This document shows positions 30,002-31,706 of a stretch of DNA of 53,177 nucleotides, piece after piece. Origin of the DNA: Bacillota bacterium (GTDB lineage Bacteria; Bacillota; Sulfobacillia; JAJZYS01; JAJYTV01); contig JAJYSZ010000013.1 in the NCBI GenBank assembly GCA_021793315.1, positions 1 to 53,177 on the forward strand, written 5' to 3'. Both the position numbers and the translations under genes were made by a program. Under the pieces are notes generated by a model that was not told the origin of the DNA, ran no database searches, and saw nothing but the letters and a program-made list of their open reading frames with translations. Position 1 is the first letter of the stretch. The number at the start of each line of letters is the position of its first letter.

Positions 30002-30051
30002 GGCACATGACGAAGGCCATGCCGAGCGGGGCATGGCCTTCGTCATGTGCC
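30002..30051. repeat. 22-bp perfect inverted repeat with 6-nt loop
   Basis: GGCACATGACGAAGGCCATGCC-gagcgg-GGCATGGCCTTCGTCATGTGCC read directly. Confidence 0.9.
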
Positions 30052-30066: not shown

Positions 30067-30876
30067 TCAGGGTTGGGCAGGGCAGGCTCTTAGAACCCAC
30101 GCCCCGCTGCCAGGCACCTCGTCGAGGAGTCCAAGCGCCTGGCGCAGCACGAAGAGCTGCGATGCGGGATCCTGGGCCACACCGATCAGCTGGCCGTCGC
30201 GGTGGGTCACCCGGAGCGCCCGCGGCGGCCGGACGAGCTCCAGGCGTTTCGGCATGTTGCCGATCACCACCGTGGCAATGCCCCGGGACTCGAGCAATCT
30301 GGCGATCAGTCCCCCGGACTGATGGCAGAGCGGTCAGACGGGGACGATCAAGGCGATGTCCACGCCCTCTGCGCGCAAGCCGCTCCAGATCGCCTCACCG
30401 GCCTCGCGCACGAGGCCGATCGCGTCGGTGCAATAGCCGTCGATCGCATAGCCGGTGGCCGCGAGCGAGCCAATCTCCCCGAGTTCACGGAGCTCGGCGA
30501 GCCGCGCCGCGGGCCAGAGCACGTTGGGGTCGCGCCGCACGGGGCCCTCATCGTAGTGGCCATGCGCGATCGAGAAGCGCGCGTCCGTGGCAAGGGGCAA
30601 CGCCCGCATGCCCGTATCGCCGCAAAGTCCCCGCCAACGGAATGGGGCCGCGTCCGGCGGGTAAAAGCCAGCCGTGCTCACGAGGCCGACTCGGCTCTGC
30701 GCCGGAACCGGCGGCGGGTCGACGAAAGGAGGCGGTCCGTTCACGACGCGGGGATAGCTCTTGAAGAAGAGATCCGAGTCCTCCGTCGCGATGGCGGCCT
30801 GCACCTCCGGCTGGGCCAGAAAGGCCCGATAGCGCTGCTCCCAATCCTGGGGCAGCACCTCGCGGTGATCGTCCAT
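30067..30876 (-). CDS. GrdB-like (glycine/sarcosine/betaine reductase selenoprotein B family) protein; in-frame TGA at 30334-30336 read as Sec
   Basis: Frame is open on both sides of TGA: ..RAEGVDIALIVPV-U-PLCHQSGGLIARLLESRGIATVVIGNMPKRLELVRPPRALRVTHRDGQLIGVA..; UxxC motif; N-terminal SRVGLVSTAGFYPPD and SIAHGHYD as in the GRDB family; SECIS-like hairpin just 3' of the TGA. Confidence 0.82.
30305..30323 (-). promoter_or_regulatory. bSECIS-like hairpin ATCAGTCC-GGG-GGACTGAT
   Basis: Perfect 8-bp stem with GGG loop beginning 10 nt after the TGA on the minus strand. Confidence 0.72.
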
Positions 30877-31215
30877 CGCTCCTCCTCCTCTGCGTCAGAT
30901 CGCGTGCACCCTTGCGGCTAGGATCCCCGCCTGCGCCCTGGGGCCGCCGCGCAGCCGGCCTGCCGGAAATGCTCGCGAGGCGCTCCACCTTCGCCGGCCG
31001 TCAGGTTCCCTGCGGGCAGGCTGAGGCTTGTCCCGGATGCCAGGTGCCCAGGTTGACCTCCCGCACGAAGCCGCCGCCCTGCTCCCAGAGACCCTCGAGC
31101 GACTGAGCACGCTCGGGGACACCTGGACTGCCAGCCTGATCGCCGCGAGGGCGCGAACTCTCATGTGCATCTCGCAGTCCAAGGAGGCGAAAAGATGGAC
31201 GCACGGGGGCACACC

Positions 31216-31295: not shown

Positions 31296-31706
31296 TCAGA
31301 CACGCTCCGAAGCGGCCTCTGCCAGGGACATCTGGCCCAAGGTGTCCTCGATCGAGTCCTGCAGCCGCTGCCAAACCTTGCGGGTGTAGCAGCGGTCCTG
31401 CCGCACGCAGCCGGGGCCCTCGTCGTCAAGGCAGTCGTAGGGCGCCAGTGACCCCTCAAGCAGCCGGATCACGTCTCCGACGCGGATGTCCTCGGCCGCC
31501 CGCGCCAAGCGGTAGCCACCCTTTGCGCCGCGCACGCTCACAACGAACCCCGCGCGCCGCAACTCGACAAAGATCTGCTCGAGATACTGTTCGGAAATCC
31601 CTTCGTCCTCGGCGATCACCCGTAGCGGCACCGGCTGGTCTCCCTGCCGGTGCACGAGCGACACCAGAGCCCGCAGGCCGTATTCGCTGCGCGTGCTCAG
31701 TCGCAT
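31296..31706 (-). CDS. Rrf2 family transcriptional regulator with IscR-like Cys cluster (suf-linked)
   Basis: MRLSTRSEYGLRALVSLVHRQGDQPVPLRVIAEDEGISEQYLEQIFVELRRAGFVVSVRGAKGGYRLAR..CLDDEGPGCVRQDRCYTRKVW. Confidence 0.92.
   Translation of the reverse strand: MRLSTRSEYGLRALVSLVHRQGDQPVPLRVIAEDEGISEQYLEQIFVELRRAGFVVSVRGAKGGYRLARAAEDIRVGDVIRLLEGSLAPYDCLDDEGPGCVRQDRCYTRKVWQRLQDSIEDTLGQMSLAEAASERV

Follow-up and report, generated by a model that had tools for sequence, protein, structure and literature searches.

The question posed by this locus is whether an in-frame TGA codon ends a gene or is read as selenocysteine (Sec) and, in the latter case, what a protein of the PrdB/GrdB type would do as the product of a solitary gene. 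The window, which is the whole stretch of DNA that was analysed, comprises 53,177 nucleotides of a Bacillota genome (contig JAJYSZ010000013.1 of assembly GCA_021793315.1). On its minus strand, a purine-rich sequence in the position of a ribosome-binding site, GAGGAGGAGG (30881..30890), lies 5' of an ATG start codon at 30876, and the frame that opens there runs for 180 codons to an internal TGA (30334..30336) and then for 88 sense codons to a terminal TGA stop codon (30067-30069). The read-through product of this coding sequence (30070..30876), which was delimited by translation, by homology to TIGR04483 and PF07355 and by conservation across the TGA in relatives, is a protein of 269 residues that contains VPV-U181-PLC184-HQSGGLIARLLESRGIATVVIGN and in which the motif VPV-U-PLCHQSGG surrounds codon 181 of the 269-codon frame. 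The codon of Cys184 (30325..30327), invariant across 58 aligned sequences, would specify the likely resolving cysteine of the UxxC motif. A standard gene caller would end the protein at residue 180, and would do the same across what is a widespread family. An earlier note on this DNA had placed the TGA at 30334-30336 on the minus strand within a 269-aa read-through frame, and its sequence, coordinates and lengths were re-derived as described; its proposal of a candidate selenoprotein with an in-frame UGA in a UxxC motif is supported by the homologue column, the hairpin and the Sec machinery described below.

Judging from the sequence, the TGA at codon 181 is almost certainly read as Sec, and this reading goes beyond chance because homology extends across the TGA, a hairpin follows at a fixed position, and the genome holds the full Sec machinery. 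A GTDB scan with the pattern PxC[HN]QS[VG]GL, which sits just downstream of the Sec column and excludes the column itself, yielded 466 confirmed relatives matching the pattern; the best 80 of these were examined, and all carry TGA in the column. They span approximately 15 phyla, including Bacillota, Rokuibacteriota, Poribacteria, Chloroflexota, Pseudomonadota, Thermodesulfobacteriota, Myxococcota, Actinomycetota, Acidobacteriota, Gemmatimonadota, SAR324, and others. The figure of 80/80 is not a family-wide one, because the loci were ranked by their likeness to a query made from TGA-bearing sequences. Of 101 related genomes, 17 hold PrdB-like genes whose frame has a TGA in this position, and U181, P182, C184, Q186, S187, G189, and L190 are invariant across the 58 aligned sequences. 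In the more distant relatives from Haematobacter and Roseomonas, the column is occupied by Cys (VPNCPICHQT), so that in the alignment proposed as a check in the earlier note, close homologues have TGA in the column and those of Proteobacteria have Cys. A side clade in class-level relatives has Ser in the Sec column (VSPLCHQT; L036 and L038) or Gly (L041-L043 and L047), which indicates that some relatives manage without a selenol and counts against the preferred explanation. The genomes of these class-level relatives (L036, L038, L041, L042, L043, and L047) do possess selA, and the Ser forms retain the Cys of PLCHQT.

Directly downstream of the UGA lies a putative bacterial SECIS hairpin, AUCAGUCC-GGG-GGACUGAU (30305..30323, minus strand), assigned from its folding, its position in 80 loci, pair counts, a synonymous-codon null, and the bSECIS model. 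The hairpin has 8 bp, starts 10 nt past the UGA, and closes on a 3-nt GGG loop whose first base is G, with 18 nt between the UGA and the loop; the upper hairpin folds with −13.2 kcal/mol, and a 48-nt stretch with −17.6 kcal/mol. The bSECIS model describes loops of 3-9 nt, stems of 4-16 bp, a G among the first two bases of the loop, a spacing of 16-37 nt, and an energy of at most −7.5 kcal/mol (PMC13188914), and the hairpin falls within every one of these bounds. Its position is identical in all of the best 80 loci, with 8/8 pairs formed in 60 and 7/8 in 20, a conservation that is partly forced because the arms encode the conserved peptide HQS(V/G)GL. When the source gene was recoded synonymously, an equally stable upper hairpin arose in only 0.3% of trials. 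The arms also covary at synonymous sites: Gln CAA occurs only with Leu TTG (21:0), whereas Gln CAG occurs with Leu CTG or TTG at 44:14 (Fisher 3e-10, phylogeny ignored), so that an A–C mismatch never occurs in the hairpin. In the Ser homologues, where a SECIS is not needed, the hairpin at this site is much weaker, at only −5.5 kcal/mol. Counting against the element, several UGA homologues fail the synonymous test when taken singly, and L047, which lacks the UGA, passes it.

The decoding machinery named as a check in the earlier note was found in full. The source genome, a draft assembly of 3.5 Mb in 210 contigs that is ~90% complete, contains a tRNA-Sec with anticodon TCA (68.7 bits), selB (310 bits), selA (534 bits), and selD (352 bits). 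The selD gene (L018, G000:C207:19436-20359) adjoins selA and itself encodes a selenoprotein, with an in-frame UGA in SGUGCK. All 17 relatives whose PrdB-like gene bears a TGA have selA above its cut-off, compared with 70 among the 101 related genomes as a whole (hypergeometric p=0.001, kinship ignored).

The alternative that the TGA is a true stop, either ending a natural 180-aa protein or marking a gene disrupted through a nonsense mutation or an error in sequencing, draws on a random-base model at 68% GC, in which 88 codons after a stop would remain open with a chance of ~15%; because of this chance, the openness of the frame past the TGA is by itself no evidence of read-through. The hairpin is also non-significant in the dinucleotide-shuffle test (z-score −1.33), which counts against it. 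A true stop is, however, difficult to reconcile with protein conservation that continues past the TGA, and retention of the TGA itself, in 80 of the best 80 loci, or with a comparison to the 76% identical orthologue in which third codon positions are the most variable both before and after the TGA, or with a genome equipped to insert Sec. Rejected by conservation, this explanation is extremely improbable.

The profile matches place the protein, as far as its sequence tells, as a PrdB-like member of the GRDB superfamily that is nearer to PrdB than to GrdB, because the NCBIfam model for D-proline reductase PrdB, TIGR04483, outscores both the Grd and the Pfam GRDB models. TIGR04483 matches residues 59-258 with 89.2 bits (E=2.7e-25), below its equivalog cut-off of 300. 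Pfam GRDB (PF07355) matches residues 97-176 with 25.4 bits (E=1e-5), above the gathering cut-off of 22, through a partial alignment that covers profile positions 265-343 of 347. The Grd models align to residues ~96-207 more weakly than the PrdB model, and TIGR01917 and TIGR01918, at 22.9 and 25.4 bits, lie below their cut-offs of 602.2 and 65.45. The PrdB and GrdH models are matched by all 58 aligned homologues. The fit to the GRDB family claimed in the earlier note holds at the level of the superfamily, but PrdB, not GrdB, is the closest relative that has been characterised (E=2.7e-25 vs E=1e-5).

A further possibility is that the protein serves as PrdB in a genuine D-proline reductase, or as the GrdB-type subunit in a glycine, sarcosine, or betaine reductase, with partner genes that are located at a distance or fall into an assembly gap. 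The homology to PrdB, which spans 200 residues and has the UxxC in the same position, speaks for this possibility, and at a completeness of ~90% the draft assembly makes the absence of PrdA and GrdA provisional. The TIGR04483 score of 89 against a cut-off of 300 argues against it, as do the partner searches: neither PrdA/GrdE-type subunits nor GrdA were found in the source genome or in four relatives (G001, G004, G006, and G007), two of which are 97% complete. The same search was able to detect such subunits on a Peptoclostridium acidaminophilum control plasmid, where it returned PrdA at 556 bits together with a sarcosine-reductase alpha (GrdG-type) subunit, and the control for the GrdA search gave 262.8 bits. 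Because the partners were not found while the controls were positive, the protein is probably part of neither a D-proline nor a glycine reductase, as far as the assembly shows; membership in such a complex was rejected on these grounds and is very unlikely. The earlier observation that the gene stands without grd or trx partners nearby was right, and for GrdA and the PrdA/GrdE-type subunits it extends to the whole assembly. On the side of identity, the gene is thus very probably a genuine stand-alone PrdB-like selenoprotein gene, as read from its sequence.

The gene immediately upstream, 420 nt away (31296..31697, minus strand), encodes an Rrf2-family regulator (Pfam Rrf2, 138 bits), which itself follows a Rieske/SufB/SufU/SufS/SufD/SufC cluster. 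On the other side, the PrdB-like gene is convergent with the gene of a Beta_elim_lyase protein, probably a threonine aldolase. Between these convergent genes, 15 nt past the stop codon, lies a perfect 22-bp inverted repeat with a 6-nt loop, CCGCTC (window 30002-30051), which has no other copy in the genome; no T-run terminator was called there, and the repeat may give the transcript a structured 3' end or act as a different type of terminator. Gene order, including the Rrf2 gene, is conserved in two other genomes of the genus (L141 and L142), in which the PrdB-like protein is ~76% identical and has changed faster than its syntenic neighbours, mostly at 81-96%. A second PrdB-like selenoprotein gene occurs in the source genome (L140:247-1000; G000:C125, plus strand), with 30% identity, the motif TPG-U-PMCHQS, and a hairpin; by eye, a LacI-type regulator, a cyclase-family protein, two zinc-dependent alcohol dehydrogenases, and a lipoyl E2-type protein are encoded 3' of it. 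In Rokubacteria, the gene is near sigma-factor and TetR genes and rplU-rpmA-obg. In Poribacteria, it is flanked by two GFO/IDH/MocA oxidoreductase genes on the same strand (L078:6867-7949 and L078:8997-10055, and 18 further loci), which are a possible substrate lead. When ORFs around the best 80 loci, taken by a simple longest-ORF rule, were clustered, no Pfam family occurred in more than 3 of 85 same-strand neighbours, and a conserved operon partner was rejected, the contexts being lineage-specific only.

The AlphaFold2 model of the protein comprises one confident domain (pLDDT 95.6, pTM 0.93), with Sec181 located between a strand (174-178) and a helix (182-197). The predicted fold is a single compact domain, with a core strand leading to Sec181 at the start of a helix and Cys184 following it. 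A Foldseek search against the PDB gave nothing significant (best E 0.024, TM ~0.3), and sequence, profile, and fold searches of solved structures gave no reliable match; the sole profile match below 0.001 spans 31 residues of a de novo design and was discounted as fortuitous.

In the chemistry of PrdB and GrdB, the presumed role of Sec is that of a nucleophile attacking a substrate that has been activated, and that of a nearby Cys is to resolve the intermediate; in the PrdB system, substrate activation is provided by the pyruvoyl group of PrdA. For the solitary protein, UGA181 would be decoded by SelB and tRNA-Sec with the aid of the hairpin directly downstream, a step strongly supported by the sequence, and the product would be a PrdB-type selenol reductase that works without a pyruvoyl partner. 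Without such a partner, the likeliest mode would be attack of the selenolate on a small, inherently electrophilic molecule, after which Cys184 would free the product through formation of a Se–S bond. Re-reduction of that bond would fall to a dithiol system of the cell, for example thioredoxin. We consider this stand-alone Sec–Cys mechanism with a small electrophilic substrate, for which no particular compound is claimed, reasonably probable, and we give an even chance to the broader proposal that the solitary PrdB-like proteins of ~15 phyla constitute a functionally distinct, pyruvoyl-independent selenoreductase. If true, the substrate and role would be new to the GRDB/PrdB superfamily, in a fold that has no solved representative.

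Alternatively, the protein might act in oxidative or Fe–S stress, controlled by Rrf2 and linked to SUF, as a thiol-disulfide or peroxide reductase of general scope and not as a reductase of a single metabolite. Its position after Rrf2 and SUF in the source genus and the Cys homologues in Alphaproteobacteria would agree with such a role, as would a gene that stands alone in changing surroundings, which is what a stress enzyme would lead one to expect. However, the copies in G006, on a short contig, and in G007 showed no Rrf2/SUF neighbourhood, the protein belongs by sequence to a family of amino-acid reductases, and some members lie among dehydrogenase genes. A stress role is a tentative and rather doubtful alternative, and it is not fully exclusive of the electrophile-reducing mechanism, as the two share the Sec–Cys redox step and differ in the substrate.

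The Sec-PrdB kind is already known from sequence surveys, to which the source gene adds one more member. It is among the commoner selenoproteins of marine surveys: 42 Sec-PrdB genes were counted in the Sargasso Sea, among the most abundant selenoproteins there (PMC1088965), and 235 Sec and 110 Cys forms of PrdB, likewise among the most abundant, in the GOS survey (PMC2398784). The interest lies in the function of the solitary form, on which nothing was found in the literature. Because Sec, Cys, Ser, and Gly forms all occur naturally, as observed in this analysis, the function of the solitary members can be tested.

Among known systems, the closest is PrdB, the 26-kDa selenoprotein subunit of D-proline reductase, with which the protein shares homology over residues 59-258, a Sec-x-x-Cys-His in the same place, and a similar size. 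The PrdB of P. acidaminophilum is ~31% identical and carries AGUGTCHRS, so that its UGTCHRS stands where the source protein has UPLCHQS; the source protein further differs in an extra N-terminal stretch of ~55 residues, in a score far under the equivalog cut-off, and in a genome in which PrdA was not found. The selenoprotein B subunits GrdB, GrdF, and GrdH of glycine, sarcosine, and betaine reductase (PF07355, TIGR01918) share distant homology over residues ~96-207 and the UxxC, but they are ~430 aa long by their models, align only in part, and belong with GrdA and GrdE-type subunits that were not found in the source genome. No phage relative of the PrdB-like protein was matched. The Sec-PrdB of marine metagenomes (Sargasso Sea and GOS) resembles the source protein in being related to pfam07355, in its UxxC, and in having Sec and Cys forms; this family was named after proline reductase, an activity not shown in the surveys (PMC1088965, PMC2398784), and, compared by description, the survey sets likely include the orphan form. 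The Proteobacterial proteins of Haematobacter and Roseomonas, annotated at NCBI as 'glycine/sarcosine/betaine reductase selenoprotein B family protein', have the same domain and, like the source protein, no adjoining prd or grd partners; at ~33-35% identity, they differ in carrying VPNCPICHQT in place of VPVUPLCHQS, that is, Cys for Sec.
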